A stretch of DNA of 64,000 bases from Agromyces laixinhei. Its GTDB lineage: Bacteria > Actinomycetota > Actinomycetes > Actinomycetales > Microbacteriaceae. A program made the translations under genes and the position numbers. The stretch covers positions 992,001 through 1,056,000 of the forward strand of contig NZ_CP040872.1 of assembly GCF_006337065.1 (NCBI RefSeq). The letters run 5' to 3'. The notes under the pieces are model-generated. The model did no database searches, was not told where the DNA came from, and was given only the letters and a program-made list of their open reading frames with translations. The first letter of the stretch is position 1. Each line of letters starts with the position of its first letter. This document shows positions 30,353-53,774 of this stretch, in pieces.

Positions 30353-30415
30353 TGACGGCGCTCAGCGAATTTCCCCAGAGTTGCTCATCGAAGTTCCTCA
30401 GGTCGCGGGGCAAGG

Positions 30416-36222: not shown

Positions 36223-36265
36223 CCTCAACGCTGACGGTTAGCGAACGGGTCTTGGTCACGTACTT

Positions 36266-36607
36266 TCATTGTGCCGATCTTCCCCTTCGGCGAATCGTCA
36301 TGGCAGAACGGCGTCCTAGCTTGCGACGGCGAAGATACAGCGACGGCGACACGCCTTCGCGGGCAGTGGCGCCGGCCCATCCCAGCAGCAGGACGCCCAC
36401 TTCCCAAGCGGCTGCTCCGGGTTGCCGCCGTTCCTCGTGGGCGTAGTCCAGCGGCGAGGCGCCCAAGAGGTCCAGCGGAGCCATCGACGCTAAGCAAGGG
36501 ACAGCTATACCGAGCCTTCCCGGGCGGAATCCGAGGCTCTCCGTCGATGACACTTTCCGTGCACTCGCGGCCACAGGTGCCAAGTCAGCGCGGAACCTAT
36601 ACGTCAT
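36266..36607 (-). CDS. Hypothetical protein coupled to relaxase copy, 113 aa
   Basis: The ATG overlaps the stop codon of the upstream relaxase frame by four bases (ATGA), the best evidence that it is real. The product opens MTYRFRADLAPVAASARKVS and contains DLLGASPLDYAHEERRQPGA and VGVLLLGWAGATAREGVSPS, with an Arg-rich end. No family recognised. It may assist relaxase function, but the upstream gene is now N-terminally deleted, so expression is uncertain. Confidence 0.5.
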   Translation of the reverse strand: MTYRFRADLAPVAASARKVSSTESLGFRPGRLGIAVPCLASMAPLDLLGASPLDYAHEERRQPGAAAWEVGVLLLGWAGATAREGVSPSLYLRRRKLGRRSAMTIRRRGRSAQ

Positions 36608-38135
36608 CGGCTCAGACCGACTTCCGGCGTGCTCCGGGTTGTGGAGTCCCGACCGAAACTCGTCCCGTCCGGCAGGCGAGCTTCGCGACGCCGCTCGTCC
36701 GTGCTGGTCGCGAGGCCGCGCACGGACTCCCGCGCGGCGATGGTCGCGCGGGTAAGCCCGCGATCGGCGCGGTCGCGTTCCGTCGCGAGGACAACCTGCT
36801 CCCGTGCATCGTCCAAGTCGCCGGCGACGAGGTGCAGGCGGTTGGAGTCACGTCCGCGGGTCATGCCGACATAGACGCCCGCCGCATCCATGACGTCGCC
36901 GAGGATCGTGTGGGACTCGCGCACAGTGGCGCCCTGCATCCCGTAGGCGGTCGACGCGTACGCCAGATGGGTGTGCTCGGCGACGTACTCCGCCGGCAGT
37001 CGCACAGTGCGTTGTCTCCAACTCGAGGTGTGTTCCTTCGCCCACACGGCGCCATCGCCGCCCACGCTCTGGACGATCCAGGTCTGCCGGTTCGCCACGT
37101 GCACAGCGGAGTCGTTCTGCCGGGTCTGGATCACGTCGCCGCGTCCGATGCTTAGGCCGTCGCTGCCGGTCGCGGTGAGTTGGTCGTCGACGTGGCCGGC
37201 GCGCACTCGCTCGTCGCGGATGCGCGTGTTCAGTTCGCGGGCTTCGTCGTTCGTCGCGACGGTGATCGCATTTCCGTCACACCACTCACGTGCGAGTGCA
37301 TCATGGAGGGCATTCGGGCTTTCATGCATCACGACGAGGCCGAGCGCGTGAAGGCGGTCGAACAGCGATTCCGGATGCTCCCCGCGTCGCATCTGCACGG
37401 TGAGCGCGGCATACGCGGGGTCGGTGAAACGGTGCACGGCGGTCATGCTGTGCACGCGGGGAAGCAGTTCCACGGCCATGTCGAGCACGCCACCGCGGCC
37501 GATCGCGGCGAGTTGCGCGCGGTCGCCGACCAGGGCGAGGGTTGCGCCGTGCTCGTCGGCGACGGTCAGGAGCGCGAGTGCGGTGTCCTGGTCGAGCATG
37601 CCCGCTTCATCGACAACGATCCGCTCACCGCGGGCAAACCGAGCGGATGCCGCGGGGCCGGTGTATGGGGCATCCGTTGCAGGGTCGATCTCGCCGACGG
37701 CGAGCTGGGTCCAGACGCCGTCGCGATTCCATCGCCAGCCGTGCTCGTGCACGAGCTTCGCGACGCTGTCGGCTGCAACCCCGAGTTCCTGATGCGTAAC
37801 ATCGGCCGCCTTCTTCGTCGGCGTGACCACCCGGGTTGCGCGGCCGTGCGCGGCGGCGGCCTCGATTGCGGCGGCGAGCATCGTAGTCTTCCCCGCGCCG
37901 GCTGCGCCTTCGACGACGACGAGCGGATCGACGGATGCCACGGCCGCGGCCGCTCGCGCCTGCGCCGGGTCGAGCCGGTGCCTGCGTGCGACGTGCGTCA
38001 CATCTGGTGCACGTTGCCGTGATTGCGCGGCGCGAGCGGTGAGCAGGTCGCGCAGGCGGGTCTCCGTGGCGATGACGTGCAGGCTCGTGAGGTGCGCGAC
38101 GTGCTCGGGATGCGGGCTGTCGGGCGGACCCGGGG
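36604..38135 (-). pseudogene. MobF relaxase copy lacking the relaxase domain
   Basis: About 510 codons align with the C-terminal half of the intact relaxase at 40,014-42,662. The helicase motifs remain: VEGAAGAGKTTMLAAAI (Walker A), RIVVDEAGMLDQDTALALL, LVGDRAQLAAIGRGG, MQGATVRESHTILGD and VYVGMTRGRDSNRLHLV. The frame is open leftward from PPDSPHPEH at about 38,130, where homology stops abruptly next to a stretch resembling an IS21 end. The nicking domain with its tyrosines and three histidines is gone, so it cannot start transfer. A GTG at 38001 could allow translation of a solitary helicase. Confidence 0.88.
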
Positions 38136-38136
38136 T

Positions 38137-38162
38137 AGGGGAGTTTCAGAGCGCCGTCAGCT
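38137..38162 (-). mobile_element. Solo IS21 end remnant
   Basis: GGGGAGTTTCAGAGCGCCGT followed by CAGC is nearly the same as the right end of the IS21 element (GGGGACTTTCAGTGAGCGCC, 32661-32680). It lies exactly where relaxase homology breaks off, so an IS21 copy probably inserted here and then deleted the N-terminal part of the gene. Confidence 0.65.
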
Positions 38163-38178
38163 CCGACGTGGGCGACCC

Positions 38179-38670
38179 TCAAACTGCGTCGTCCGTTGGT
38201 CTCTGGGCGGGGTCGCCCAGACGGCCCGTACGAGCCCAGGCAAAGAGGCGGGGACCCACACGTTCTCTTAGCGCCTGGAGCTCTCGGGTCTGGTGCCCGT
38301 CGATCGCCTCCGCCAAGATGGCCGCCAGCGAGGCAGTCAGTTCGTGTTTCAACCAAGCGTCGACCTCAGACACATCGCGAACGGAAACAGCAGCCGCGTT
38401 CATCTTGACCGTGACGTCGTGCAGTGCCGTCTTGATGCTCGAGGCTCGCTGGTAATCGATCTCGCCAGACTGCAGCCTCGATCGGTACTCGGCTAACGCG
38501 AGATCGATTGCGAGCGCATACTCCAGTCGCTGAGAGCGTTCGGCTTCCGCGCGCTGAACTCTTGCGAGCCGAACCGTCACAAAGACTGCCGTAATCGCGA
38601 CTGCTGTCGAGGCGATGACGCCCGCGGCAGGGATGATCATCTCAGCCCACCACTGCCACGCCGAATACAC
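38179..38670 (-). CDS. Single-pass membrane protein with coiled coil, 163 aa
   Basis: GTG start. One membrane helix at about residues 10-32 (MIIPAAGVIASTAVAITAVF), followed directly by a long charged helix (RLARVQRAEAERSQRLEYAL ... LAEYRSRLQSGEIDYQRASS). The C-terminus is soluble. No family recognised. Proteins of this form occur in mobile elements as membrane-anchored coiled coils, but no role can be given. Confidence 0.6.
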   Translation of the reverse strand: MYSAWQWWAEMIIPAAGVIASTAVAITAVFVTVRLARVQRAEAERSQRLEYALAIDLALAEYRSRLQSGEIDYQRASSIKTALHDVTVKMNAAAVSVRDVSEVDAWLKHELTASLAAILAEAIDGHQTRELQALRERVGPRLFAWARTGRLGDPAQRPTDDAV

Positions 38671-38974
38671 GTATCCAGTGTTTCACCCGGCTCACGCGGG
38701 CGCAGTCGAGGACGCGAAGCCGGTGCGCTCGCTGATGACTTTTTTCCGCATTCCGGGTGCCGCGTACACGCGGCTAACGGCGCGACGAGTTTGACAATCC
38801 CAAGCCTCGCGCGCGAAGCGGTTCCGTCGTGGTGGTCATGTCCGCAGCTCTTGCCAGAATCGAATCATGAGGACGTTGCTGCTCGACACCACCTTTGAGG
38901 CAGATGATGTTGCTGACCGGTTCGCCTTCACCAGTATGGTGTCACTCGCCGAGACCCTCGCCAGTCTCGAGCGA
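38671..38974. other. Gap of about 300 bases
   Basis: Contains no convincing gene. A 41-codon plus-strand frame at 38867-38992 (MRTLLLDTTFEADDVADRFA) has a protein-like look but no ribosome site and overlaps the next gene's 3' end. Confidence 0.35.
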
Positions 38975-39985
38975 CTACTTCTTCCCGATTGAGTTCATGG
39001 ATTCGATGTAGTTCTCCAAGAACCCATGTTCAGCAAGGACTCGCCAAGGGTTATTTGCTGCCGCAATGTCACGATCAGCATCCTGGATCCTGCACCATGA
39101 GCAGCGATTGCCCATTACTAGAGGCTCGCCGCACACCTCGCAAGCGTTCTCGGGTTCTGAGATCGCCCCTTCTGCAAAGACACGAGACGAACCGTCCGAA
39201 GCCAAGAAGAATGGGGTTATGTTGTTTCGCCCGATCTTGCTCTCATAGACTTCGCAACCAATATCCGCGGCGTACGAGCGCAGTTTGGACTGCGTGTCAG
39301 CGTCAATGTTCGAGCCGAGGATCACTGCGGTTACACAATGACGCGGAATCGAAAGGAGTGATGCTCCGTCCACATGAACGAGGTCGGTCGCATTGTTCAG
39401 GACGAGACGCCTCTCCTTCTCGTACGACCAGCACGAGGCCTTTGTGAAGTATGCGGCGTGGTACACACTATTGCGGAGAAAGTAGATGTCCCTAAACTTC
39501 TGGCGATATTGAGCCCGCGCGAGTGAACCCGCGAGGTCGTCGGCGGGCGAGTCGCGATAGGTTACGTCATCAATAACGCAGGAGTCACCGAGTTCAGCAC
39601 GCAAACTTGCTTCATCTATCTCAATGACAAACCCCTCACCGTTCTGTCCGTAGTGAGCCCACATCGGAACGACATCAGGGTGACGTGAGAAGCATGTGGT
39701 GGGCATCATCCCCATCGCTCCGATCACCTCTTCATAGAAAGCGAGAGTGTCAGGGGGGAAATTATGGTCAACGGTGAGAAACAACTCGAAAGGGTCATTG
39801 AACTCGTTCGGCAGGGAGAACTTGAGTGTTGCGCCATTTTGCGAAAGTGCTTTGCCTGCAAGATCAGGGGCGAGGTACTTGTACAATTTGCCGGCCAAAT
39901 GACTTCCTTTCGGGAACAGAGTCTTACTTGGATCAGGCTTCGCTCTGCCAAGGCCGGGTCGCAGGGCAAACGATACATCGACCAT
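38975..39985 (-). CDS. DUF2971 domain protein with zinc-ribbon tail, 336 aa
   Basis: DUF2971 signatures: LYKYLAPD, FSLPNEFNDPFE, CFSRHPDVVPMWAHYG, GFVIEID and KASCWSYEKERRLVL. Members are common in defence islands and near phage genes, but the biochemical role is unknown. An added C-terminal piece CEVCGEPLVMGNRCSWC (about residues 281-297) is a probable zinc ribbon. Base composition is visibly lower in GC (about half) than the adjacent relaxase genes, and codon use differs, so it is a recent arrival. It lies 28 bases downstream of the intact relaxase on the same strand. Confidence 0.82.
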   Translation of the reverse strand: MVDVSFALRPGLGRAKPDPSKTLFPKGSHLAGKLYKYLAPDLAGKALSQNGATLKFSLPNEFNDPFELFLTVDHNFPPDTLAFYEEVIGAMGMMPTTCFSRHPDVVPMWAHYGQNGEGFVIEIDEASLRAELGDSCVIDDVTYRDSPADDLAGSLARAQYRQKFRDIYFLRNSVYHAAYFTKASCWSYEKERRLVLNNATDLVHVDGASLLSIPRHCVTAVILGSNIDADTQSKLRSYAADIGCEVYESKIGRNNITPFFLASDGSSRVFAEGAISEPENACEVCGEPLVMGNRCSWCRIQDADRDIAAANNPWRVLAEHGFLENYIESMNSIGKK

Positions 39986-40013
39986 CCGCTCGGTAGGTCT
40001 CGCCCACGGATAC

Positions 40014-42662
40014 TCATCGGTTCAGGACTGCTCCTGGGTTCCTCCGTGGTGAGGGTGCAGATGCAGTCGTAAGTCCGCGAACGGACTCTCGTGCAGCCGA
40101 GGTGCCCCTCACGAGGCCGTGATCGGCGCGATCCCGATCCATCGCGACGACGAACTGCTCACACGCATCACCCGCATCCACGGCCACGAGGTGCACCCGG
40201 TTGATGCTCCGGCCGCGCGTCATCCCCACGTAGACACTCGCCGCACCCATCGCATCACCGACCACCGTGTGCGACTCGTCCACCGTCATGCCCTGCACCC
40301 CGTGTGCCGTCGCGGCGTACGCGAGGTGCGTGTGCTCGGCAACGTACTCTGCTGGCAGCCGCACTGATGGCGGCCGACGCCCGGGGGCACGTTCCGCCGC
40401 CCACACTGCGCCATCCTCGCCCACGCGCCGAATGACCCATACCTGCCGATTCGCCACTCGCACGCCCGAGTCATTCCGCCGAGTCTGAATCACATCGCCG
40501 CGCCCGATGCTCAACCCATCGCTCCCGATCACCGTGCAACTGTCATCGACGAGATCGGCCCGCACCCGCTCCTCGCGGATCCGCGCATTCAGCTCGCGCG
40601 CCTCGTCGTTCGTCGCAACGGTCATTGCGCACCCTTCGCGCCACTCGCGCACAAGCGCCTCGAGCTGCGCATCCGGGCTCTCATGAATCGCAACAAGACC
40701 GAGCGCGCACAGCCGATCGAAGACGGCCTCCGGATGATCCCCGCGCCGCATCTGCACGGTGAGCGCGGCGTACTTCGTATCGACGAATCGGTGCACGGTC
40801 GTCATGTGATGCACGCGGGGGACCAGTTGCGCGGCCATGTCGAGCACACCACCTCGGCCGACGGCGGCGAGCTGCGCACGGTCGCCGACGAGGGCAACGA
40901 TGGCGCCCACCTCATCGGCGACGGTCAGTAGCGCGAGCGCCGTGTCCTGGTCGAGCATTCCCGCCTCGTCGACGACGATTCGTTCGCCGCGGCGCAGCCG
41001 AGCGGATGCCGCAGGGCCGGCGTACGCGGCATCCGTGTCAGGATCGCGGTCGCCGATGGCGAGCCGCGTCCACACGCCGTCGCGATTCCACCGCCACCCG
41101 TGCTCGTGCACGAGCTTGGCGACGCTGTCGGCCGCAACCCCGAGCTCCTGGTGCGCAACGTCGGCCGCCTTCTTCGTCGGCGTGACCACGCGGGTCTTGC
41201 GACCCTGCATCGCCGCCGCCTTGATCGCAGCGGCGAGCATCGTCGTCTTGCCCGCGCCGGCTGCACCCTCCACGACGACGAGCGGTTGAGCTGATGCCAC
41301 GGCCGCAGCCGCGCGCGCCTGTGCCGGGTCGAGTCGGAGCCGCTGTGCAAGGCGCGAGAGGTCCGGCGTGTGTTGCGGAGGCCGCCCGGCACGGGCCGTG
41401 AGCAGATCTCGCAGCCGGGTCTCGACCGCGATTACATGCACGCTCGTCAGGTGCGCGACGTGCTCAGGATGCGGCCCATCGGGCGGCAGCACCGACAGGC
41501 AGTTCGCCTTGGCGAGCTCTGTGACGAGCGTGACGAACTCGCGCAGCGGCGTCGGGTCGGCCCGAACGCCGGCCTCGGTGACGAGGTGCGACACGTGCTC
41601 CTGGATGTCGTGCACCGTCCACGTCGACGCAGCGGCCGCGCATCGATCGAGCGCGCGGGACGCGACATCCTTCACACTCAGCTCATCGAGCGCGACGGCC
41701 CGTTGCGCCCGCACGCGTTCGAGATTAGGTCGATAGCCGGATGCCTCGAGCTCGCGCCGCCACGCTTCCTCGCTGCCGAGTTGGGTCGGCTTCTTGTGCG
41801 GCCGCTCGTGATCCCACGCCATCGCGGTCAGTCGCGACATCGCGGCGGGTCCGGGTTCTTGGTCCGGATGCACCGCACGCCAGTCCTTCTCGAAGCGTGC
41901 CAGGTTGCGCGTAACCTGCTCGGCACGCTTGCTCATCGCCGCGTTGAACGGCTGCAGTTCGGTGACCTCGGCCGTCACCGGATCGAGCGTGAGGCCATGC
42001 GCGTCGAGCGCGGCCGCGAGGTGCGGATGCGCCGCGATCACGGCCGTGCCGAGCGCGCGGATCGCACCTTGCTGACGGAACAGCGCCGCCGTGTCGAGAC
42101 CTCGCCACGCGGCATCCGCCCACACCCGTGTGCCGATCTGGAAGTGGATGTGCCGGTGCGGGTCGCCGGCCCGCGAGGTCTTGTGCGAGACCGCGACCGT
42201 CTCGAACTGCTCGACCGGCACCACCCGCTGCGCCCCGCGCGGGCCGACACGAGTGACCGAGTGCTGGCCGAGCCAGACGCGGATCTCGGCGACCGCGTCA
42301 CGCTGCGCCGCATCGAGGGCCTCGGATACCTCGGGGTGAAGCGCCGCGGCGATCGACAGCGACTTCGGCGCGTTGACGACCATCTCCGCGAACCGCGGCG
42401 ATCCGTGGCGAGCGTCGCCGGCGTGGCGGGGCGTGCCCATCGACTCGCCGGTGAGCGGGTTGATCCAGTCGACCCAGTGCGCGTACTGCTCGGGAGTGAG
42501 GGCGCCCTCGCCGATCAGGTCGCCGTTGCCGTCGACGACGGAGAACTCGGCCAGCGCCGTGCCGCCCTCGAGGTAGTAGTCGTCGGCGCGGGAGCGATCG
42601 GACTCCAGGTATCGGCGCGCATCGGCTCCGGAACCTCGGTACAGGTTCACTCCACCTCGCAT
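40014..42662 (-). CDS. MobF-family relaxase/helicase (TrwC/TraA-like), 882 aa
   Basis: Nicks oriT and unwinds DNA for conjugative transfer. The N-terminal relaxase domain has the catalytic tyrosines in RADDYYLEGG, an active-site loop APKSLSIAAAL and the three-histidine metal motif DPHRHIHFQIGTRVWAD. The C-terminal half is a RecD-like superfamily 1 helicase: VEGAAGAGKTTML (Walker A), IVVDEAGMLDQD (motif II), LVGDRAQLAAVG, and VYVGMTRGR (motif VI). ATG 42662 follows GGAGGA; the frame is open 11 codons further. Upstream at 42681-42695 is the operator-like motif shared with the integrase promoter. No coupling protein or mating-pair genes are present in the window. Confidence 0.92.
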   Translation of the reverse strand: MRGGVNLYRGSGADARRYLESDRSRADDYYLEGGTALAEFSVVDGNGDLIGEGALTPEQYAHWVDWINPLTGESMGTPRHAGDARHGSPRFAEMVVNAPKSLSIAAALHPEVSEALDAAQRDAVAEIRVWLGQHSVTRVGPRGAQRVVPVEQFETVAVSHKTSRAGDPHRHIHFQIGTRVWADAAWRGLDTAALFRQQGAIRALGTAVIAAHPHLAAALDAHGLTLDPVTAEVTELQPFNAAMSKRAEQVTRNLARFEKDWRAVHPDQEPGPAAMSRLTAMAWDHERPHKKPTQLGSEEAWRRELEASGYRPNLERVRAQRAVALDELSVKDVASRALDRCAAAASTWTVHDIQEHVSHLVTEAGVRADPTPLREFVTLVTELAKANCLSVLPPDGPHPEHVAHLTSVHVIAVETRLRDLLTARAGRPPQHTPDLSRLAQRLRLDPAQARAAAAVASAQPLVVVEGAAGAGKTTMLAAAIKAAAMQGRKTRVVTPTKKAADVAHQELGVAADSVAKLVHEHGWRWNRDGVWTRLAIGDRDPDTDAAYAGPAASARLRRGERIVVDEAGMLDQDTALALLTVADEVGAIVALVGDRAQLAAVGRGGVLDMAAQLVPRVHHMTTVHRFVDTKYAALTVQMRRGDHPEAVFDRLCALGLVAIHESPDAQLEALVREWREGCAMTVATNDEARELNARIREERVRADLVDDSCTVIGSDGLSIGRGDVIQTRRNDSGVRVANRQVWVIRRVGEDGAVWAAERAPGRRPPSVRLPAEYVAEHTHLAYAATAHGVQGMTVDESHTVVGDAMGAASVYVGMTRGRSINRVHLVAVDAGDACEQFVVAMDRDRADHGLVRGTSAARESVRGLTTASAPSPRRNPGAVLNR

Positions 42663-43076
42663 CGCCTTCCTCCGAGCTAGCTCAGGTTCTTGCAACTACC
42701 TACGGTAGCATACGTCCATTCAGAAATGGGGGACTCGGAGTGTGCGGGTGTGTGCTGTAGGAACGATGTATCGGTACTCTTGGCGGCGCCTGGAGGTGTA
42801 TCCGGTCGAGCAGGTTCGAGTTGGCTAATTCGCTCGCCGAGCGCGTGACCGGTATGTCGGGTGAGAACCCAGCAGCCCCGAGCGTGACGCGGGTGCCTCG
42901 CTAGGTGCGCTCCCACGCCATGTCGTCGATGTTGAGCATCCGCCGCAGTCGCAGCACACCTGGAAAGCATGGTTTCGCTCCCGCGCGCCTCGTGAATGAG
43001 ACCCAGATGCTCGCCACCTCCGGATAGGCGGTGTGTCTCTCTCCTCAGATCGCCAGTTTCGTTCGGCGCACGCGAC
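42663..43076. other. Relaxase promoter region and remnant
   Basis: Holds the relaxase promoter area with the motif CTCAGGTTCTTGCAA (42681-42695) and a minus-strand TATGCT (-10-like) just upstream. Further right, a minus-strand frame of ~40 codons ending at 42901 reads PEVASIWVSFTRRAGAKPCF and RLRRMLNIDDMAWERT, which looks like the C-terminal scrap of a lost gene. No complete gene. Confidence 0.45.
42681..42695 (+). promoter_or_regulatory. Operator-like motif at relaxase promoter (CTCAGGTTCTTGCAA)
   Basis: Differs by one base from CTCAGGTACTTGCAA at 50713-50727 and matches CTCAGGTACTTGC at 50677. It lies 19 bases upstream of the relaxase start codon. A regulator of the element, perhaps the HTH protein at 49,942, could bind all three and coordinate excision with transfer. 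Confidence 0.6.
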
Positions 43077-46000
43077 TCAGGAGAGCCTAAGTAGCGCCTC
43101 CCGCGCGGTGGAGCTCGGGTGGGGTGGAGATCGAAAGCAGCTCGGCTTCTGGCACTCGCGCGAGCCCGCCGAGTTTACGGTTCGGCAACTGAGGCATTCC
43201 CATCCGGGTTCGGGGCGCTCCGCAATCGCTTCCAAGAGGCCACGGGCATCCGGAGGCGCAATGCGCGCGAGAGCATCGATGGCGGCCTCCTGAACGTGAC
43301 CGTCCACATCGTTCAACAGCAGAGCAAGGCGCGGGTCAACTCGACGGCGGTCGAACTCCGTCATGGCCGCCGCAGCTGCCCTCAACACCGGGTCCGGATC
43401 ATTCAGCCAGATTGATGGCTCAGGCTGGCCAGAGAGCGAGGACAGAGTAAGGGCAGCGAGTCGTTCATGCTCCGGAGAGCTGTGCAGCTTGGGGATCAGA
43501 TCACGGATGAGACGCGCGGCCGTGGCAGCTTGTGGTGTTGCCCAAAGGAATCTAGCGGCTACGCGGGCTTGTGTCGTGGTCAGAAGGAACTGGCTTGCAA
43601 GCGCGTGCACGGCTGAATCGGGGTCGTCGAGGCGAGCCCACTCAGGTTGTCGTGGCGCGGGGGGGTCGAACATCGCATCGAATGGCGCGGACGACCTTGT
43701 CTCGCCCATCCGCTCAAGGAGAATCGAGGCTTCGGTGGCGAGTTCGCTCATGTCCAGCCCGAGTAGTTCGGCCACCGCTGTGAATACAGAACGCCGGACT
43801 GCGGGACTCTGTGCGTGGAAGGGGTCGCCGTAGTCCTCCAGACGGAGGGCTTGGAGAAGCGATGCCAGCGAATCAAGTGCGACGGATTCGCGCCCCGTCA
43901 TGGAGAGGCGCTGGCCCTCAGCGATCTGCTCGACTGTTTCCGATTCTCGGGCCTCCTCGTGGTCGTCAAGCCAGGCCGCGAGTCTGATCCGTCCCGGTTC
44001 GTCGGTGCGTGCCTCGACGATCTCACGCACCTCAGCGTCGAAGCCGTGATCCACCAGAACTTGCGTGAGCGGATCGGCGAGCATCGCTGGACCGTGCATG
44101 ATCCTCTGCACAAGCAAGTCGACGTTCTCCGGACTGTGTTCGGCGAGGAAGCCAGCTGCCTGCGACTGCGCGGTTGCCAATGAGCCGACGTGGCGCAGGA
44201 CGCTCCAAAAGTCGCGTGACTCCCGTCCAGTGCCGCCGGCCGATTTCGGCAAACTGCTAAGCGTCATGAGCTTTCGCACCTGCTCGATCAGGTCCTCAGG
44301 AGACGGCTGAGTGAACCGGAGCGCAAGCGTCGTCTCGGCGACGAGTGCGTGATCCTCACTATGGGAGCGGGCCGCCGCGATTATGCTTTCGTGCGCGTCC
44401 GTCGGCGGGCACATCTCGAGGAGGTCGTCCCAGCAGTCCCAGCTTTCGTCGGTACCGAGGTTCAAGCTTTCGATGAGCGACGAGAGGATCTCTCGCCTCT
44501 CCCGCTCGGCCAACGCGGCGCCTTCACGAATGGCACGTGCCAGCGCGCGAGCAAGCTGCACGTTCGACGGCGTTGCTCGCAGAACTTCGACCGCCGCGGC
44601 GCCCGCGGTGGCAGGATCAAGCGCGCATGCAAGCACAACGGACTCGAGATTCTCCGCAGCGATACGAGCGCCGGTCCAGGTGGACAACGTGGTTGGGTTG
44701 GCAACGGCGTGCATCGCGTCTCCGATCTCTGCGAAGAAAACGATGCGGGGAGTTACTTGACTCGACGATGTGCCGATGGTGAATATCCCGCTTTCGTCGA
44801 ATAGACGGATCGCATCAAGTGATGCCGCTTTCGCGTCGCCTGGTGCGAGGTCCCATTGGTGGCTTAGCTCGGCACCTACAACTTCCACGAGGGCGGTGAG
44901 GCTCACCGATCCGTTGTGGTCCATCAGCGTTCTCGCTTCAACCGCGAACGCGTGGAGGCCCGCAATAGGGAGTGCGCTTCCTTCAAGCCTCCCGAGAGGG
45001 TGACCGTCATTGCGTCTCAGCTCACGTCGCGTGACGACCTCGTCTACGGCCTCCCGGAGCACGTCCGCCCGGCGGTGCGGGAGCCCGCTTTCATCGGTGC
45101 GCGTGGCGAGCAACGTGAGCAGAATTGGTATCAGGGGTGTCTCGCGAAGGATGCTATCGCTCGCGAGCACGTCGTTTGCCCATCGCTGGCGGACCTCGAT
45201 CCACTCACCAGCGCTTACCCCCTCCCGGGTCGGGGCAGCTAGCCGAAGTATCGCACCGATGGTGACGCCGGAATTCGCGGGTGGCATGAGGTTGACGTGT
45301 GGCCAGCCCAGTGTCTCGGCGTACGCGTACGCGACGTCCCTGGTGCTTAGCAGGACCGGCACGCCGGCATCCAACGTTTCCGTGAACCGTTGCACGTCGC
45401 TGATGACCTCTGCTCGGTGGTCGTACGTCTCATCGAGCGCATCGAGCAATACAGCAACCGGTCGTGTTCCATCGAGCCGCACCTCGAACTCAGCCCGCAG
45501 TACCTCCCGATCAGAGGCTGTGCAGTCTTTCAGAGCGATGGCGAGCAAGCGGTCGCGGAAGCTGAGACTGTGATCCAGCGCGTTGACTTCACGTAGCGAC
45601 GCCAGAAGGGGTATCGGCAAGTGCCCGCCGGCGCAAAGATCTGCGGCAGCCCGGCGCATGGCTGTGGATTTTCCTGCTCCTGGCAGACCAGTGAGGACGC
45701 AGCGCACACGTCGGAGGAATGCCCACGTCAGTGGGCGGCCGACGGTATGGCCGTCGACTGACCGTTCCACGCGAACGTCCGCATCGGCTTCAGCGAGTGC
45801 GACATTCGGCAGGGCCGCGCCGAGCGAGCGTAGGTCGATCTCCCAACCACGCCGTCGGACGCTCAGACGATATCGGTCGAGAGCAGATTCGCGTTTCTCG
45901 AAGAGCCCGGCTGGCGACGCAGACAGTTCCCTGAAACCGGCACCACCAGCACGGAGCGCCGTCAACCATGCGTCTAGGTCGTTCCCACCTCGCAAGCGAG

Positions 46001-46643
46001 CTACACGGCCGGCCTCCTGGAGAGTGAGCCCCCACACCAGCATTGCTTGTTTCGGATCCTGGAGCTCGGCCCTCAGCAATCCGATTGCGACCTGCGCACC
46101 GGGTTCTTCGGGCTGCTCCGCCTGGACCTCCCAAATCACGGCTACTTTGAGCACCTGCTCGAACTGTTCGTCGTTGAGCTCCGACAGCTTCTCGCGAAGC
46201 TTCACCCTAAGCGACTGCTCCTCGCCCGTGTCCGCCGCGGGTGTTGTCAGTTTCTGCCGTTGGAGCCATCGGCGCATGGAATGCATGGTTCCCGAGAGCC
46301 TCCCAGACGCAATAACGAGACGCGTCTTGGCGGGGTTGACGCCTTGCTTGACCGCCGCGACCCACTGAGTAACCGCCTTCGACAAAGACGCGCCGGCGTC
46401 GAGGCTTCTCTTCGCCTGAATGAGGGCCATCCAGCCATCATCGAACGAAACCGAAATGTCGTCGACGGCGTCGTCCGTTTCGAGCCCGACCGCTCTGACG
46501 AAGGCGTACTCTGTCGGCACATCCAGCCCGGCTACTGGTGCTCCGGCTATGCCGCTCGCCACCAGATAGGAAGCAACCGCGCGACGATACTCGGCGCCAG
46601 CTTCTCCCGCGGCACCCCCAACGCTGCCTCGCCCTGCGACCAC
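43077..46643 (-). CDS. PD-(D/Q)xK nuclease-STAND NTPase-repeat-zinc finger protein, 1188 aa
   Basis: Residues ~15-130 resemble a Mrr/Cap4-type restriction nuclease: Asp in VDDISVSF (61-68), then ALIQAKRSL (Q76-K78), and TRLVIASGRLS. Residues ~290-620 are a NACHT/STAND NTPase with Walker A GLPGAGKST (319-327), Walker B PVAVLLDALDET (395-406) and VLLSTRD (430-436). From ~650 to ~1140 the protein is helical and repeat-like (HEAT/ARM-type). At the end WECLSCRTVN ... C ... C (C1150, C1153, C1164, C1169) is a RanBP2-like zinc finger. This is the plan of antiviral STAND (Avs) proteins: sensor repeats trigger the NTPase, which activates the nuclease. A terminal zinc finger is not usual. GTG start after GGGGG. 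Confidence 0.8.
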   Translation of the reverse strand: MVAGRGSVGGAAGEAGAEYRRAVASYLVASGIAGAPVAGLDVPTEYAFVRAVGLETDDAVDDISVSFDDGWMALIQAKRSLDAGASLSKAVTQWVAAVKQGVNPAKTRLVIASGRLSGTMHSMRRWLQRQKLTTPAADTGEEQSLRVKLREKLSELNDEQFEQVLKVAVIWEVQAEQPEEPGAQVAIGLLRAELQDPKQAMLVWGLTLQEAGRVARLRGGNDLDAWLTALRAGGAGFRELSASPAGLFEKRESALDRYRLSVRRRGWEIDLRSLGAALPNVALAEADADVRVERSVDGHTVGRPLTWAFLRRVRCVLTGLPGAGKSTAMRRAAADLCAGGHLPIPLLASLREVNALDHSLSFRDRLLAIALKDCTASDREVLRAEFEVRLDGTRPVAVLLDALDETYDHRAEVISDVQRFTETLDAGVPVLLSTRDVAYAYAETLGWPHVNLMPPANSGVTIGAILRLAAPTREGVSAGEWIEVRQRWANDVLASDSILRETPLIPILLTLLATRTDESGLPHRRADVLREAVDEVVTRRELRRNDGHPLGRLEGSALPIAGLHAFAVEARTLMDHNGSVSLTALVEVVGAELSHQWDLAPGDAKAASLDAIRLFDESGIFTIGTSSSQVTPRIVFFAEIGDAMHAVANPTTLSTWTGARIAAENLESVVLACALDPATAGAAAVEVLRATPSNVQLARALARAIREGAALAERERREILSSLIESLNLGTDESWDCWDDLLEMCPPTDAHESIIAAARSHSEDHALVAETTLALRFTQPSPEDLIEQVRKLMTLSSLPKSAGGTGRESRDFWSVLRHVGSLATAQSQAAGFLAEHSPENVDLLVQRIMHGPAMLADPLTQVLVDHGFDAEVREIVEARTDEPGRIRLAAWLDDHEEARESETVEQIAEGQRLSMTGRESVALDSLASLLQALRLEDYGDPFHAQSPAVRRSVFTAVAELLGLDMSELATEASILLERMGETRSSAPFDAMFDPPAPRQPEWARLDDPDSAVHALASQFLLTTTQARVAARFLWATPQAATAARLIRDLIPKLHSSPEHERLAALTLSSLSGQPEPSIWLNDPDPVLRAAAAAMTEFDRRRVDPRLALLLNDVDGHVQEAAIDALARIAPPDARGLLEAIAERPEPGWECLSCRTVNSAGSRECQKPSCFRSPPHPSSTAREALLRLS

Positions 46644-46955
46644 TCAGACCCCCAAAACCGTCAACCCGGCATCGTGCTCTACGAGCACATTCTCCTGCCT
46701 ATCCGAGTCGTGTAGGACCGTGGAACCTGAAGCACACTTGGCTGGGTCGAGCAGAGTCGCGATGTGCAGTAGCCGTTTCGAAGACATTCCTCGGCAGCCT
46801 TGGCTTCCATGCCACCTAGGCTCGGCGCTGGACCGCTAACCGCTCTCATGAAGCGTCGGGAAGGTGGCAGTCGCAGCAGGTATGCCCGAACCGCCGACTG
46901 ACCTGATGCGGTCGAATGAGTGTTCTAATAGGATCCGGCGAAAGGAGGAGAGCGC
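46644..46955. other. Divergent promoter region between STAND and PRTase-like genes
   Basis: About 310 bases with no gene. Near the right end, TAATAGGAT is a possible -10 and AAAGGAGGAG is a strong ribosome site for the gene at 46,956. Confidence 0.4.
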
Positions 46956-47408
46956 ATGGATATTCTCGAGCTCATCCAACGCGGCAACGACAATGTCGTC
47001 GTTAACGATGACCACCGATCCCTGAGGGCTGCCGCCGCTACACTGGTGGACTCTTTCGACGAGTGGTCGGCCTTCACCGTTGTGGCGGCGAGCCCGGCCG
47101 GCGAGCGGTTGCTCGGCGCTGCGATGATGCTTTACCCGACCCTCAGAGGCGGTCGCTCCGCTCGGACGGTGATCGTCGACATCAATGTTGCAAGCGGCAC
47201 GCTCATCGCCAACGCGGCCCGGCGGCTCCGAGAGGAAACCGTCGTCGAGCGAGTCGTTGCGATAGCGCTTCACTCATTGGTGGCACACGACTTCCGATGG
47301 TCGATTGAGGGTGTCGACTCGGTCCTTATCCCAAGCGCCCAAGCGCCTGATTCACGCGAGTTCGGACAGCGCCGCAAGTACGGCCTCGTACTTGCCGGCA
47401 CCGATTGA
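46956..47408 (+). CDS. Phosphoribosyltransferase-like protein, 150 aa
   Basis: The core FTVVAASPAGERLLGAAMML ... TVIVDINVASGTLIANAARR resembles the type I phosphoribosyltransferase fold: a strand with hydrophobic-acidic residues, a flexible hood and the PRPP loop region, here VIVDINVASGT in place of the usual DD-(A/S)-TG pattern (one of the two acidic residues is replaced). It may bind a nucleotide without catalysis. A strong AAAGGAGGAG ribosome site supports the ATG. Its last 57 bases overlap the convergent gene at 47,352. Its location, divergent from the STAND gene, suggests a link, but this is inference. Confidence 0.6.
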   Translation: MDILELIQRGNDNVVVNDDHRSLRAAAATLVDSFDEWSAFTVVAASPAGERLLGAAMMLYPTLRGGRSARTVIVDINVASGTLIANAARRLREETVVERVVAIALHSLVAHDFRWSIEGVDSVLIPSAQAPDSREFGQRRKYGLVLAGTD

Positions 47409-47801
47409 CTTCGCGTACGCGACCGCGTCGTCCAGGCCGTTCTTCTTGAGGCGGCGGGCGAATGCCTGCGCATCCCCGAGAACAACAGGCTGGCCGAGGT
47501 GCTCGCGCACGACGAAGATCGAGGCCCCTTCAGCGTGAGCTCGTGAGAACTGTGCTTTTGAACGTCGGGCAACCGGGGAGGTTCCGGCGACGCGGAACAC
47601 GGCTCTCTCGAATGCTAGCGATGGCAGTTTCCCGCTAAGCAGTCGTGCGAGATCGACGGCCTGCTCCGCGGGTTCGACAGAAGAGGCACGGAGTTCGAAG
47701 TCGGCCTCGACGACAGGACTGGCGGTGGTTCCGCTGAGGACAACGCCGACGATGCGCGGTTTGCCGGCCGCAGGTATTACGGAGACGCCAAGAACTCGCA
47801 T
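47352..47801 (-). CDS. RNase H-fold-like hypothetical protein, 149 aa
   Basis: The opening MRVLGVSVIPAAGKPRIVGV followed by VVLSGTTASPVVEADFEL looks like the first hairpin of an RNase H/RuvC-type fold (as in DUF3010), but the usual catalytic Asp on strand one is absent (LGVSV). A later stretch (VFRVAGTSPVARRSKAQFSR; IFVVREHLGQPVVLG) and a C-terminal helical end (LDDAVAYAKSIGAGKYEAVL) fit. If so it is likely inactive as a nuclease. Its ATG is only 22 bases from the divergent kinase ATG, so both must share or overlap promoters. Confidence 0.5.
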   Translation of the reverse strand: MRVLGVSVIPAAGKPRIVGVVLSGTTASPVVEADFELRASSVEPAEQAVDLARLLSGKLPSLAFERAVFRVAGTSPVARRSKAQFSRAHAEGASIFVVREHLGQPVVLGDAQAFARRLKKNGLDDAVAYAKSIGAGKYEAVLAALSELA

Positions 47802-47823
47802 TGCACGACAGTACCCTGAGTGC

Positions 47824-48864
47824 ATGTCATCAGCGCCCGACTACCCGCCGGGAACCGTCGTTAACGATCGCTACGAATTTCGGGGGAAGCTCGGCCGGGA
47901 CGGCAGTGTCTACGAAGCATTCGACCGGAATCTGCGTCGCGTCGTTGCGTTCAAGGTGTTGGAGCCTCGCCAAGGGCAATCCCAGTCATGGGATGAAGCT
48001 CGAAGGCTCGAGCAGCTCCGGAGCGAGTTCATCGTCGATGTGTTGAACGCGGACGTCGTAATCAATAGTGACATCAGGTACATCGTTACGCCGCTGGTCC
48101 CAGGTGGTGACCTAGAACAGCTCGCCAGTCCCGTCGGCGTCGGTCTGAGGAGCGCAGTGCGCTTTGGCCAACAGATTGCGGCTGGTATCGATCGCGTTCA
48201 CGAAAGCAACATGCTTCACCGCGATGTGAAGCCTGCAAACGTCCTGCTACAGGGTGACAAAGTGCGCGTCTCAGATCTCGAGTACTGCATCGCCATGGAC
48301 GAGATCGGTGAGGCTGAACCGGCGGGAAGTTGGTGCTCGGTTGCGCCGGAAGCAGCCATCGACAATGGCAGGTGCTCGGTTCGAAGCGACATCTACTCGC
48401 TCGGTGCAACCGTCTTCTACCTACTATCCGGTGAGTACCCAGTCGACCACCGGCTCCACCCCGCAGAGCAGAGAGACCGAATCGTGCGGGGCGACATTCG
48501 GGAACTCCGCGAGCTTGCACCGCACGTCCCTCAATCCGTCGCAAACGTTGTGCGTCGCGCGGTGAGGCATGATCCGAACAAACGCTTCGATTCCGCTCTT
48601 GCGTTCGGGAATGCCTTGGCAACTGCGTACGCGAACGCACAGGATCGGAGACGTGTGGTGCACCCCGATCACCTCCACTGCATTGAGCTAGATGGGGGAA
48701 CAAAGGCGCCCGTGACGATCTGTGCTGTCCGGAACGCAGTCGGTGTGCACCTCTCAGCACGACACTCGCGAAACGGTCGCCGCGTTGCGGGCGTTCGTGA
48801 TCGCGTTGTAGCCGATGCGAATCTCGCATCCGAGTTGCGCACGCTTGTTCAGGAGTGTGCGTAG
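47824..48864 (+). CDS. Atypical Ser/Thr protein kinase, 346 aa
   Basis: Protein kinase domain, residues ~15-270. The glycine loop GKLGRDGSVYEAF (degenerate), VVAFKVLE (Lys44), LHRDVKPANVLL (catalytic HRD, 132-134) and VAPEA are present. The metal-binding DFG is replaced by DLE (151-153), which keeps the Asp, so phosphorylation is still possible. The ~80-residue C-terminus has no membrane helix, unlike PknB-type kinases, so it is cytosolic. Kinases fused or linked to defence genes are known; the neighbours here are a STAND nuclease, PRTase-like and HIRAN-like genes. Confidence 0.82.
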   Translation: MSSAPDYPPGTVVNDRYEFRGKLGRDGSVYEAFDRNLRRVVAFKVLEPRQGQSQSWDEARRLEQLRSEFIVDVLNADVVINSDIRYIVTPLVPGGDLEQLASPVGVGLRSAVRFGQQIAAGIDRVHESNMLHRDVKPANVLLQGDKVRVSDLEYCIAMDEIGEAEPAGSWCSVAPEAAIDNGRCSVRSDIYSLGATVFYLLSGEYPVDHRLHPAEQRDRIVRGDIRELRELAPHVPQSVANVVRRAVRHDPNKRFDSALAFGNALATAYANAQDRRRVVHPDHLHCIELDGGTKAPVTICAVRNAVGVHLSARHSRNGRRVAGVRDRVVADANLASELRTLVQECA

Positions 48865-48972
48865 CGACGGGGGCTGATTGAGCAGCGTCCTCCCAAAGCG
48901 GACCCGCCCACGTCGCGTACTCAGGCATCGATCGAGCGAGTGACGCTGTCTGCGTTGAGGTCGGGCTTGGGC
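48865..48972. other. Short gap between convergent kinase and HIRAN genes
   Basis: About 108 bases. No terminator hairpin stands out. Confidence 0.3.
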
Positions 48973-49872
48973 CTACGCACCGCGTTCGGCGGTGATTCGT
49001 GACCGGCTAATCCGTGACGACACCGAGTCCGGAATCTCGCGGTCTCCGCAAGCAGCGACGTAGCGCTCCAACGCCTCCAGCTCCTGCGGGAACTCACGGA
49101 GTCGACGCAGGACTACGGACAATTGCTCGGTCGCCCACGGGTTCGGGATCTCTCCCATCGAGGCTGCCTCCCGTTCGGCGGCATCGCGACACTTCACAAG
49201 CAGATCCCGGGCCTCGTCAAAGCGCTGTTGGCGCTTGAGTTCGGCGATGCTCGGTTTGAGTAGTGCCCAGTACTCACCGTCGACGGCGCCAGCGGTCCGT
49301 CGAGCTTCCTTCTCCGCCTCGCGCGCAGCCTTTGCCTCGGCCTTGCGCATTTGCTCAACAAGCCTCGCGGATTCGTACGCTTCGCTCGCGAGCCGCTCTG
49401 CCGCGTAGTCCTTTTCCGACTCGGAGTCGCCGGAAAACATCAGCGTTACTCTTCCCCGCCACACGTTGTCATCGTTGCGGGCCCAGATTCGTGCCGGGAC
49501 TACCGCGATGCCTCCGCGACCCACCGAACTGCAAGCTCGCGCCACATTCCTGCTGTCCTCTTGCGGGACGTGGCCGACCTGATGCCCGTTGACGACGACT
49601 CGGACCGCGTTCGGGTCGTACTTGTTCGTCGGTTCCGGGATTAGCTGTGCCACTTGCATCGTCACGCCACCCTCAAGGCGCCCTAGGCTGCCAAAGATGT
49701 TTGCGAGCCCGCCGCGATAGTACGCCTCGCCAGCGACCTCGATGTCGTTCCATCCACGGCCAATCGGGACCTCTCTGGCGACAACACTGCTTGCAGACTG
49801 CGCTGGCTGAGTTTCCGTGGTGCGAGCCTGTCCTGAGCCGCCGCCGAACAGTCTGGACAGGAAGCCAGCCAT
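48973..49872 (-). CDS. HIRAN-domain protein with C-terminal helical repeat, 299 aa
   Basis: Residues ~38-160 form a HIRAN domain: VAGEAYYRGGLANIFGS, VAQLIPEPTNKYDPNAVRVV, NGHQVGHVPQEDSRNVARA. HIRAN binds DNA 3' ends or damaged DNA. Then a charged Ala/Glu coiled coil (KAEAKAAREAEKEARRTAGA) and a TPR-like end (KPSIAELKRQQRFDEARDLL ... LSVVLRRLREFPQELEALER). The C-terminal part aligns with that of the protein at 29,398. Start MAGFLSRLFGGG with ATG at 49872. It might recognise foreign or broken DNA, or serve the element itself. Confidence 0.78.
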   Translation of the reverse strand: MAGFLSRLFGGGSGQARTTETQPAQSASSVVAREVPIGRGWNDIEVAGEAYYRGGLANIFGSLGRLEGGVTMQVAQLIPEPTNKYDPNAVRVVVNGHQVGHVPQEDSRNVARACSSVGRGGIAVVPARIWARNDDNVWRGRVTLMFSGDSESEKDYAAERLASEAYESARLVEQMRKAEAKAAREAEKEARRTAGAVDGEYWALLKPSIAELKRQQRFDEARDLLVKCRDAAEREAASMGEIPNPWATEQLSVVLRRLREFPQELEALERYVAACGDREIPDSVSSRISRSRITAERGA

Positions 49873-49941
49873 TGATGTCTCCTCGATATGCGGAGGGCGT
49901 ACCCCTCCTCCTCGCGTGAGTGTAGCGAAACCTTGGCGACT

Positions 49942-50655
49942 CTATCCCGCGCGGCCGCGACGCCCAGGCGGTAGGAGCCCGCGGTCTCGGGCCTTCGTGA
50001 TCCAGCCCTGCGCGGTGGAGAGGGCGACGCCGTTGATCTGCGCCATCGTCGCGCTCGGATTCGCGTCGCCCTGCTGGGTGAGCCGGCCGTGCTGCAGCGC
50101 CACCAGCTCGTAGAAGTCCGGGACCTTCTTCGGGTCACCCAGCGGCTTGAGCAGATCCCGCCGGCTGACCTTCCGCCCAGACGGGAGCACGATCTTGCCG
50201 CCGGTGATCGTCTCGGTGCGCTTCATCGCGAAGAGGCGCTTGTTGATCGCGGCCTCGATGCGGGCGGTGGGCAGCTCGCGGAGGAGCTGGCTCGTGATCG
50301 GGTCTCCGGCCCGCCAGGGAAGGTAGATGACGCCGGTGATTCGCACCTCCCCCGGTACGGCGAACGTCTGGCGCTGCAGGCGGATCATGACGCGTGTGTG
50401 CGTCGCATTGTGTTCGATGTATCGCCAGCGGCCGTCGATCGTCTCGTTCTGGTCGGACTCTTGCTGCCCCTGAGCCCGCTCGTCGGTGTTTGCCCAGTCG
50501 TTGTAACCGAGGAGCTCGTCGATCTGCGCGCTCGCGTCGTCGCTCCGCTCGCCGGCGAATCGGCTTGGGAGGTGCCACCCGTCGGGAAGGTCGGTCGTGT
50601 CAAGCAGCCCGTCTTGCGACTGGTTCGCCCATGGGGACGGTTCGGGAAGGCCCAT
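49942..50655 (-). CDS. HTH protein of integrative element, 237 aa
   Basis: The C-terminal ~60 residues (YELVALQHGRLTQQGDANPS, ATMAQINGVALSTAQGWITK) read as a helix-turn-helix of the kind seen next to integrase genes in actinobacterial elements. The N-terminal 170 residues have mixed strand and helix and no recognised family. On the minus strand TAGACT lies six bases before the ATG, so the mRNA may be leaderless. It diverges from the excisionase/integrase operon. The shared gap has two CTCAGGTACTTGC motifs, and I infer it is the element's regulator. Confidence 0.68.
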   Translation of the reverse strand: MGLPEPSPWANQSQDGLLDTTDLPDGWHLPSRFAGERSDDASAQIDELLGYNDWANTDERAQGQQESDQNETIDGRWRYIEHNATHTRVMIRLQRQTFAVPGEVRITGVIYLPWRAGDPITSQLLRELPTARIEAAINKRLFAMKRTETITGGKIVLPSGRKVSRRDLLKPLGDPKKVPDFYELVALQHGRLTQQGDANPSATMAQINGVALSTAQGWITKARDRGLLPPGRRGRAG

Positions 50656-50676
50656 GGCTCGAGTCTAGCCACACAG

Positions 50677-50727
50677 CTCAGGTACTTGCCGAAACCCGTG
50701 CGCGATGGTAATCTCAGGTACTTGCAA
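50677..50727. promoter_or_regulatory. Divergent promoter with two CTCAGGTACTTGC motifs
   Basis: Copies at 50677-50690 and 50713-50727. For the rightward promoter, TTGCCG (50686-50691) and TAATCT (50709-50714) are 17 bases apart, so copy one overlaps the -35 and copy two follows the -10. For the leftward promoter, copy one sits in the -35/-10 spacer of TAGACT. A protein bound to both copies would repress both directions. Confidence 0.65.
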
Positions 50728-50793
50728 ATAGCCGCGCGTGGGTCGGCATGCACGAGATGCCAGCCGGCGGCCGATGAGTCGAGGGGGAGCGTC

Positions 50794-50991
50794 ATGGCCG
50801 ACACCGCGTGGAGGGTTGAGTACCTGAGTCGAGTCGAGGCGGCCGAGCGGTGTCGCATCCCGGTCTCGAGCTTCGACAAGCTGCGCCACGACGGACTCAT
50901 CCCCGAGCCGGACGCGCGCATGGGCAAGCACCTGCTCTGGAGCGCCGACACGATCGACGAGCTGCTCGCGCGGGGTGGAACGGAACACTGA
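50794..50991 (+). CDS. Excisionase-like HTH protein, 65 aa
   Basis: Small winged-helix protein, YLSRVEAAERCRIPVSSFDK followed by GLIPEPDARMGKHLLWSADT, the MerR/Xis-like pattern of excisionases. AGGGGGAG precedes the ATG. Its stop overlaps the integrase start by one base (TGATG), as expected for an xis-int pair. It would favour excision when expressed. Confidence 0.82.
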   Translation: MADTAWRVEYLSRVEAAERCRIPVSSFDKLRHDGLIPEPDARMGKHLLWSADTIDELLARGGTEH

Positions 50992-52196
50992 TGGCCGGGC
51001 GGCCGACGAGAGACACCCCGTCGCGCGTCGATCCGCGCACGGGTCGGCCGCTGCCCGAGGGCATCCGCTGGCGAGCCGACCGCCAGCGGTACCAGATCCG
51101 CGTCGTCGGCCCGAGTGTCGAGGGCGGCGCTGCCGAGCGATCCCGCACCTTCCTCACGCTCGCCGAGGCCAAGCGTGAACTCGCGAAGATGGTGGCCGGC
51201 CGCAACCCGAACGGCTCGATGACGCTCGACCAGTGGTACGACAAGTACTGGCCTGCGATCGAGTCATCCATCCGCCCGGCGACGGCCCGCAGCTACGGGG
51301 TCGCCTGGCGGCTCCGCGTGAAGCCGAGCCTCGGCCGGCACCGGCTCGACGAGATCACCTCGCCGATGATCGAGTCGGCGATGGTCGCGTGGTCGGGCGG
51401 GGCTTCCGCCAAGAACGATGCGCTCGCCGTGCTCTCGCGGTTGCTGGATGGCGCGCGCCGCTCCCGGTTCATCGACTTCAACCCGGCCCGAGAGGTGAAG
51501 CGTCCGAGCATGCGCGAGTCCATCTCGCCGGTCTCGCGCGCGCTCACCCTCGACCAGATTCGCGCCCTGCTCGAGCTCGTTCCCGAAGGGGCATACCGCG
51601 GCTACCTCGCGGCCCTCGTCTACACCGGCATGCGGGCGGGGGAGGCGACCGCGTTGCGCGTGGGCGATGTCGACTTCGAGCGCGGCATCATCCGCGTCAG
51701 CCGGTCGCTGAGTCCTGGCCAGCGCGGCGAACTGATCGAGCAGTCGCCGAAGAGCCACAAGTCGCGCGACGTCCCGCTGATCGACGCGCTGCGTCCGTAC
51801 GCCGAGGCAGCCGCGAGAGGCAAGCAGGCGAGCGACCTGCTCTTCGCCGGACCCGACGGCGGGCGACTCACCAACCACAACGCGCGACGAGGAGCAAACT
51901 GGGAGACGCTTCGCGAGGCGATCGGTCGACCCGACCTGCGCATCCACGACCTCCGGCACACGTTCGCGACGATCCTGTTCGACGCCGGCGCCACCGCGCC
52001 CGACGTGCAGGCGACCTTCGGCCACTCGAGCCTGCAGGTCACCGAGCGCTACTCGCGCGCTCGCGAGGGCGTCGCGCTGCGCACTGGCGCGGCCCTCAAC
52101 GACGCGCTCAAGAGCGCAGGCGCCGGACCATCGCAACGAACCAAAGGGCGGACCCCCGCCGACCTTAATGGCACATTAATGGGCGCTCCTGACTGA
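50991..52196 (+). CDS. int: Tyrosine-type site-specific integrase, 401 aa
   Basis: Catalyses integration at tRNA-Phe. The N-terminal arm-binding domain (residues ~20-75), the SAM-like core-binding domain (TLDQWYDKYWPAIESSIRPA) and the catalytic domain are complete: Arg in TGMRAGEATALR, Lys in SPKSHKSRD, HDLRHTFATIL, and GHSSLQVTERYSR with the nucleophile Tyr. The last codons are altered by the ISL3 insertion: normal reading after one target copy would end MAQPHRRPRGMTH, now it ends MGAPD. This loss is beyond the catalytic domain, so activity may remain. Confidence 0.93.
   Translation: MAGRPTRDTPSRVDPRTGRPLPEGIRWRADRQRYQIRVVGPSVEGGAAERSRTFLTLAEAKRELAKMVAGRNPNGSMTLDQWYDKYWPAIESSIRPATARSYGVAWRLRVKPSLGRHRLDEITSPMIESAMVAWSGGASAKNDALAVLSRLLDGARRSRFIDFNPAREVKRPSMRESISPVSRALTLDQIRALLELVPEGAYRGYLAALVYTGMRAGEATALRVGDVDFERGIIRVSRSLSPGQRGELIEQSPKSHKSRDVPLIDALRPYAEAAARGKQASDLLFAGPDGGRLTNHNARRGANWETLREAIGRPDLRIHDLRHTFATILFDAGATAPDVQATFGHSSLQVTERYSRAREGVALRTGAALNDALKSAGAGPSQRTKGRTPADLNGTLMGAPD
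52174..52181. repeat. ISL3 target-site duplication, left (CATTAATG)
   Basis: CATTAATG directly before the ISL3 left end is repeated at 53618-53625 after the right end. Eight base pairs is the ISL3-family length. Confidence 0.85.
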
Positions 52197-53617: not shown

Positions 53618-53670
53618 CATTAATGGCACAGCCTCACCGGCGTCCTCGCGGAATGACCCACTGACACGAA
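53618..53670 (+). other. Displaced 3' end of the integrase gene
   Basis: From the second CATTAATG the sequence continues in the integrase frame as M-A-Q-P-H-R-R-P-R-G-M-T-H and a stop at 53661-53663. This shows what the native C-terminus was before ISL3 inserted. Confidence 0.8.
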
Positions 53671-53696
53671 AAAACCCCCGGTAAACCGGGGGTTTT
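53671..53696. terminator. Bidirectional rho-independent terminator
   Basis: Perfect 12-bp stem AAAACCCCCGGT / ACCGGGGGTTTT with a two-base loop, flanked by A-run and T-run. It lies between the integrase end and tRNA-Phe and could stop both. Confidence 0.9.
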
Positions 53697-53701
53697 GACT
53701 G

Positions 53702-53774
53702 TGGCTCCGACCGGCATCGATCCGGTGACCTTTCGATTTTCAGTCGAACGCTCTACCAACTGAGCTACAGAGCC
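53702..53774 (-). tRNA. tRNA-Phe (GAA)
   Basis: Seventy-three bases fold as a cloverleaf: acceptor GGCTCTG with CGGAGCC, D-arm TAGCTCAGTTGGTAGAGC, anticodon loop CTGAAAATC (anticodon GAA) and T-loop region CCGGATCGATGCCGG, discriminator A, no encoded CCA. It contains the right attachment repeat from anticodon loop to T-arm, so it is the integration target, restored intact by the element. Confidence 0.95.
53717..53744 (+). repeat. Right attachment repeat inside tRNA-Phe
   Basis: Same orientation and 27/28 identity to 26165-26192. It covers the anticodon loop through the T-arm, a standard crossover zone for tyrosine integrases that use tRNA genes. Confidence 0.85.

Follow-up and report, generated by a model that had tools for sequence, protein, structure and literature searches.

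A conserved nuclease-NACHT-HEAT protein with a C-terminal RanBP2-like zinc finger in an integrated element of Agromyces laixinhei: a probable STAND immune effector

Bacterial NACHT proteins are relatives of the animal NLRs, and the ligand of each of them is a hard question. The nuclease Cap4 of CBASS is switched on by its SAVED domain together with a cyclic nucleotide, and the Avs proteins, like bNACHT25, serve as an analogy for a course of events in which a ligand leads to opening, assembly and nuclease activation. Phage protection by bNACHT25 requires its nuclease, and infection leads to degradation of the host DNA (PMC12169576). This study concerns a gene in a 64,000-nucleotide stretch of the Agromyces laixinhei genome (contig NZ_CP040872.1; hereafter the window, to which all coordinates refer), which encodes a protein designated P0001. 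The original prediction, made from the sequence, had read P0001 as a nuclease-STAND-repeat-finger protein, and this reading was confirmed by the family and structure analyses described here.

Domain architecture and conservation

The gene and its parts are as follows.

43077..46643, minus strand: whole gene of the nuclease-NACHT-HEAT-zinc finger protein P0001, 1188 amino acids (open reading frame call and homologue alignment)
45924..46604, minus strand: PD-(D/Q)xK nuclease domain with predicted Cap4/LmuA fold, residues ~14-240, with D61, D62, Q76, K78 and Q93 (motif and fold)
46404..46463, minus strand: nuclease motif DD...QAKR, residues 61-80 (alignment)
44394..45896, minus strand: NACHT/STAND NTPase module with winged-helix and helical domains, residues ~250-750 (profile and fold)
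45666..45689, minus strand: Walker A, GLPGAGKS, residues 319-326 (alignment)
45429..45443, minus strand: Walker B, DALDE, residues 401-405 (alignment)
43206..44393, minus strand: HEAT-type helical superhelix, residues ~751-1146 (profile and predicted structure)
43134..43202, minus strand: RanBP2-like zinc finger, residues 1148-1170, with C1150, C1153, C1164 and C1169 (alignment, patterns and profiles)

The open reading frame begins with GTG and occupies exactly the interval first assigned to it, and the N-terminus of P0001 is collinear in the alignment with those of the other family members. The genome itself (3.44 Mb in one contig) holds a single match to P0001.

A search of 5.8 billion proteins returned at least 62 homologues at E <= 0.001, a lower bound because scoring was confined to the 7989 candidates with the most words in common. 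Most of them (56 of 62) are 1121-1249 amino acids long, and the organisms named are actinobacteria, namely Streptomyces, Kitasatospora, Nocardia, Lentzea, Microbacterium and Arthrobacter. Alignment A1, on which the residue counts below are based, has 58 rows, comprising the query and 57 of the 62 homologues; it leaves out the remote hit P0063 and four fragments of 831-914 amino acids, of which P0040 and P0059 have the finger by pattern and P0035 and P0042 do not. The homologues form a conserved family in which the finger is nearly always kept.

A profile search gave 89 proteins at E <= 1e-10, including two short ones (P0064 and P0065, 613-643 amino acids) and 28 more distant matches (P0063 and P0066-P0092). 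The DD...QxK nuclease motif is kept in 11 of these 28, and the finger pattern is found in none of them, four being shorter than 900 amino acids and perhaps incomplete; the finger therefore marks the P0001 family and not nuclease-STAND proteins at large. Proteins with the same C-terminus and another N-terminal effector were also sought with the C-terminal 174 residues of P0008, a query that reaches close relatives only, and no such effector swap was found among its 27 matches. The DD...QxK motif is present in 24 of them; for the other three (P0093, P0104 and P0107), the alignment to P0001 does not begin before residues 185, 223 and 118, respectively, and their N-termini look truncated or altered. 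On one actinobacterial contig (L004:9995-13563), the homologue lies in two frames, one of 992 amino acids followed by one of 197 with the finger.

In a survey of the phylum, a match was obtained in 3 of 396 genomes (the genome under study, one full-length and one partial), and in a survey of the family in 3 of 299 (the same genome and two partial). The P0001 family is rare and patchy, as mobile defence genes are.

For the N-terminus, where a PD-(D/Q)xK-like nuclease had been proposed, structure comparison of the predicted model revealed a Cap4-like PD-(D/E)xK nuclease fold, which is common to the nucleases Cap4 of CBASS and LmuA of Lamassu. The residues D61, D62, Q76 and Q93 are present in 58 of 58 rows, and K78 in 55; P0031, P0032 and P0055 have arginine instead (QAR for QAK), and an impaired or altered nuclease is possible in these three. 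The Pfam family DUF4297 was not among the 12 families listed for P0001 at E <= 10, a list from which the HMMER filters drop most weak matches.

The NACHT/STAND core was likewise borne out, since a NACHT fold with winged-helix and helical domains was found, G319 and K325 of Walker A are present in all 58 rows, and D401, L403, D404 and E405 of Walker B are invariant. In NACHT/STAND proteins, Walker B is defined as D-small-h-D-E, that is, a small residue and an acidic pair, and the DALDE of P0001 satisfies this definition. The Pfam NACHT model scores P0001 at 20.7 bits, below its gathering score of 26.7; among seven relatives scanned, P0008 (34.6) and P0061 (36.3) pass and the other five fall below.

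The long helical repeat region proves HEAT-like by profile (HEAT_2, E 1.4e-5, 25.7 bits against a cut-off of 27.7; HEAT, E 0.15) and by predicted structure, and HEAT_2 and HEAT are the only Pfam, NCBIfam or PADLOC families matched by the HEAT and finger part of P0001. Helical repeats fill the list of structures retrieved with the C-terminal model, none at a Foldseek E <= 0.001, so that the match is one of arrangement. In the alignment, the entropy is 2.65 bits for the HEAT part versus 2.00 for the NACHT module, and this variability would fit a ligand-facing arm.

The C-terminal zinc finger

The predicted four-cysteine finger is well supported by conservation, as C1150, C1153 and C1164 occur in 56 of 58 rows and C1169 in 55. 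When the A1 rows were taken together with the C-terminal matches P0093-P0107, a loose finger pattern matched 66 of 73 C-termini, compared with 3 of 116,000 shuffled A1 C-termini. Among the seven misses, P0005 and P0056 are fingerless, P0038, P0039 and P0041 have four cysteines with a C-x-C spacing, and P0060 and P0107 lack the last cysteine; three or four of the finger cysteines are present in 71 of the 73 members. Across the finger of the C-terminal model, the mean predicted local distance difference test score in 10-residue blocks is 92-96.

The strict RanBP2 pattern is W-x-C-x2-4-C-x3-N-x6-C-x2-C. It matches 14 of the 73 C-termini and 0 of the 116,000 shuffles; in P0001 itself, the last pair is C-x4-C and not C-x2-C. 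Compared with solved fingers, the A1 profile retrieves archaeal L40e (E 0.0028) and Nup153 (E 0.0096), and a finger profile, A3, in which 15 of the 16 rows were picked for the C-x2-C spacing, retrieves a RanBP2-type chain (3.1e-6), Nup358 (1.6e-5) and L40e (2.6e-5). Two points count against a RanBP2 assignment: ribosomal L40e scores like the RanBP2 fingers, and, when the 16 tails of A3 are scanned alone, 6 match PF00641 (best E 1.8e-5) but 7 match DZR, the double zinc ribbon. PF00641 is not listed for P0001, and its gathering score of 27 is not reached by any of the whole proteins scanned (best 17.2 bits, P0049); the genome under study has no PF00641 match, but the control does not reach the cut-off in any of 14 genomes either. 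Judged from sequence, the finger falls among the short zinc fingers of RanBP2-like type, below the Pfam threshold. Such a terminal finger is unusual in this class of protein, and its type is best known from human proteins.

The integrated element and neighbouring genes

The gene lies in an integrated mobile element, as had been claimed, with the following features.

26172..53744: integrated mobile element holding the P0001 gene, bounded by a 21-bp direct repeat, its left boundary less certain
50850..52196, plus strand: phage-type integrase of the element
40014..42695, minus strand: MobF/TrwC relaxase-helicase, downstream of the P0001 gene
38975..39985, minus strand: DUF2971 protein, PADLOC candidate PDC-S31, E 9.3e-25
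28049..28918, minus strand: AbiEi-like regulator, PADLOC E 4.3e-92

The integrase, the MobF relaxase and a perfect direct repeat reaching into tRNA-Phe support this location. One copy of the repeat is at 26172-26192 and the other, at 53724-53744, is inside tRNA-Phe, and the likeness extends to 27 of 28 positions; the remainder of the tRNA end is missing from the left copy, which leaves the boundary on that side unsettled. The element lies in a stretch of lower G+C and contains insertion sequence elements. All of 60 genomes of the genus match the tRNA cluster, and in at least 11 of them the tRNA-Phe end recurs on the same contig as a further copy of 25-26 bp at a distance of 3.6-25 kb, as would be expected if the site were a hot spot of integration. 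Of the 60 genomes, 23 have matches to the DNA upstream of the gene (46800-49900), but outside the genome under study these are only short (<=73 bases).

The AbiEi-like gene and the DUF2971 gene agree with the proposal that other defence-like genes share the element. No AbiEii partner was recognised among the neighbours tested, and 26406-27155 and 29398-30330 have no PADLOC match of any kind. The DUF2971 gene lies downstream of the relaxase, and its product has a CxxC...CxxC stretch of its own near the C-terminus (residues 282-298). The open reading frame at 36604-38001 (minus strand) is 76% identical over 434 amino acids to the helicase half of the relaxase and is a partial duplicate of it. 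Upstream of the P0001 gene and divergent from it, 46956-47408 (plus strand) encodes 150 amino acids behind a good ribosome-binding site; it has no Pfam or PADLOC match and by eye resembles a phosphoribosyltransferase. At 34966-36222 (plus strand), a 418-amino-acid protein ends in a part that by eye is NYN/PIN nuclease-like (DGSN motif; RNase_Zc3h12a only at E 0.23).

The neighbours of four homologues on genome contigs (L002-L005) were also scanned. In the Streptomyces panaciradicis locus (L002), a CBASS-type cyclase match (8543-9292, 9.9e-105) lies upstream of the STAND gene at a distance of about 700 bp, and downstream of it there is a type I methyltransferase match. Schlafen AlbA_2, DUF4062, a DitA-like gene and an HNH/PtuB-like gene are neighbours in L004, PDC-S39 and a weak integrase match in L005, and a kinase, NERD and AAA_5 in L003. 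No partner gene common to L002-L005 was seen in a non-systematic inspection by eye. Among 50,697 phage records and in a viral-contig scan with A1, no homologue was found, nor was any found in a phage scan with the fingerless relative P0075; large plasmids, in contrast, carry two partial relatives, which are 26-28% identical across about half the protein.

Mechanism, alternatives and known defence systems

On the parts, conservation and predicted folds described above, P0001 is probably a single-gene STAND immune effector that combines ligand sensing by its C-terminal arm, ATP-driven assembly and DNA cutting, three activities that we infer from known STAND proteins. The HEAT superhelix and terminal finger would form a ligand-binding arm that keeps the protein closed. 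Once an invader product binds this arm, the NACHT module would exchange ADP for ATP and self-assemble, and the Cap4-like nuclease domains, thereby brought together, would cut DNA, so that infection would be stopped by the destruction of invader DNA, host DNA or both. The finger, whose role is the least certain, most likely caps the superhelix at its C-terminal end and contributes to a ligand-binding or regulatory surface.

Several points weigh against this mechanism. The replacement of K78 by arginine in 3 of 58 rows suggests that catalysis may not be kept throughout the family, and the variability of the HEAT part could equally reflect relaxed constraint. Variable finger positions argue against one shared ligand. 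The neighbour scans took a chosen subset of neighbours, without a background rate, and the kinase matches in L003 and in the window are unspecific, the window kinase matching many PADLOC kinases.

In the finger and tail, the cysteines, W1148, N1157, P1176, A1180 and L1184 are kept, while other finger positions vary with entropies of 2.2-3.5 bits. Such a fixed scaffold with a variable surface would fit a structural cap that shares in binding better than a single universal ligand. That the finger is a dedicated sensor on the HEAT arm, recognising a molecule of the invader or a host protein that the invader has modified, is unlikely; if true, P0001 would resemble the NLRs as a receptor, but would recognise its ligand through a type of unit best known from the nuclear-pore, ubiquitin and RNA biology of eukaryotes.

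With switch and nuclease unchanged, P0001 might serve the element against competing plasmids or conjugative elements instead of phages, with a product of the incoming element as the trigger. The position of the gene beside a MobF relaxase, the lack of homologues in the phage data and the two plasmid-borne relatives speak for this; one homologue, however, lies near a CBASS-type cyclase, and absence from phage records reveals little of the target. We consider this alternative unlikely.

Alternatively, the finger and not the HEAT repeats could be the sensor, binding nucleic acid such that P0001 detects invader RNA or DNA. The RanBP2-type fingers of ZRANB2 bind RNA, and both the near-universal cysteines and the profile matches to RanBP2-type and L40e fingers are in favour. 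An aromatic residue after the asparagine is the signature of RNA-binding RanBP2-type fingers; however, it was found in 0 of 56 fingers, and the surface positions vary. We consider this alternative quite unlikely. The T-F type dipeptide, the signature of ubiquitin-binding fingers, was likewise found in 0 of 56. A non-immune role as a host regulator or developmental STAND protein, which would suit the actinobacterial hosts, among which STAND regulators are common, is very improbable given a nuclease fold at the N-terminus whose active site is conserved, the patchy distribution (full length in only two genomes of the phylum survey and one of the family survey, its own included) and the mobile element location.

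Returning to P0001 as an immune effector, its NACHT module stands where Cap4 has SAVED, the domain named in the titles of the matching PDB entries. The likeness to the RanBP2-type fingers of Nup153, Nup358 and NPL4 consists of the strict pattern in some members and the profile matches, whereas P0001 ends in C-x4-C below the Pfam cut-off and its family lacks the T-F dipeptide and the aromatic. No PADLOC model of Avs1-5 was among the three families listed for P0001 at E <= 1; in contrast to Avs, for which the structure of Avs3 is solved, P0001 has HEAT repeats and a terminal finger, and it measures 1188 versus 2028 amino acids for the Avs3 chain.

Residues 7-341 of P0001, comprising the nuclease and the start of NACHT, match positions 11-346 of the 1621-position model PDC-M54A (E 2.4e-9), as do the relatives P0008 (6.1e-17) and P0049 (3.4e-23). 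The two matching models are 1621 and 1657 amino acids long, however, and their remainder has no match in P0001; P0075, fingerless by pattern, matches both models in full. The PADLOC models thus catch the P0001 family only by its first third.

Literature searches confined to open-licence papers, PMC13092281, PMC10910872, PMC12169576 and PMC7159879 among them, found no description of a protein with the nuclease-NACHT-HEAT-finger order. Against novelty, a DefensePredictor figure legend lists ZF (zinc finger) among the domains of validated systems (PMC13092281). Since the finger is nearly always kept and point changes in its four cysteines would disable it, the role of the terminal domain in sensing or autoinhibition is directly testable.

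Among the closest known systems are bNACHT25 and bNACHT32 of clade 6, which, like P0001, have an N-terminal PD-(D/E)xK DNase, a central NACHT module and a C-terminal sensing part; by description, their C-terminal domain is NCH1, which sets them apart (PMC12169576), and the word "zinc" has no occurrence in the main text of that paper. P0001 thus represents a known kind of protein rather than a new class, and its uncharacterised family is distinguished by an added terminal domain.
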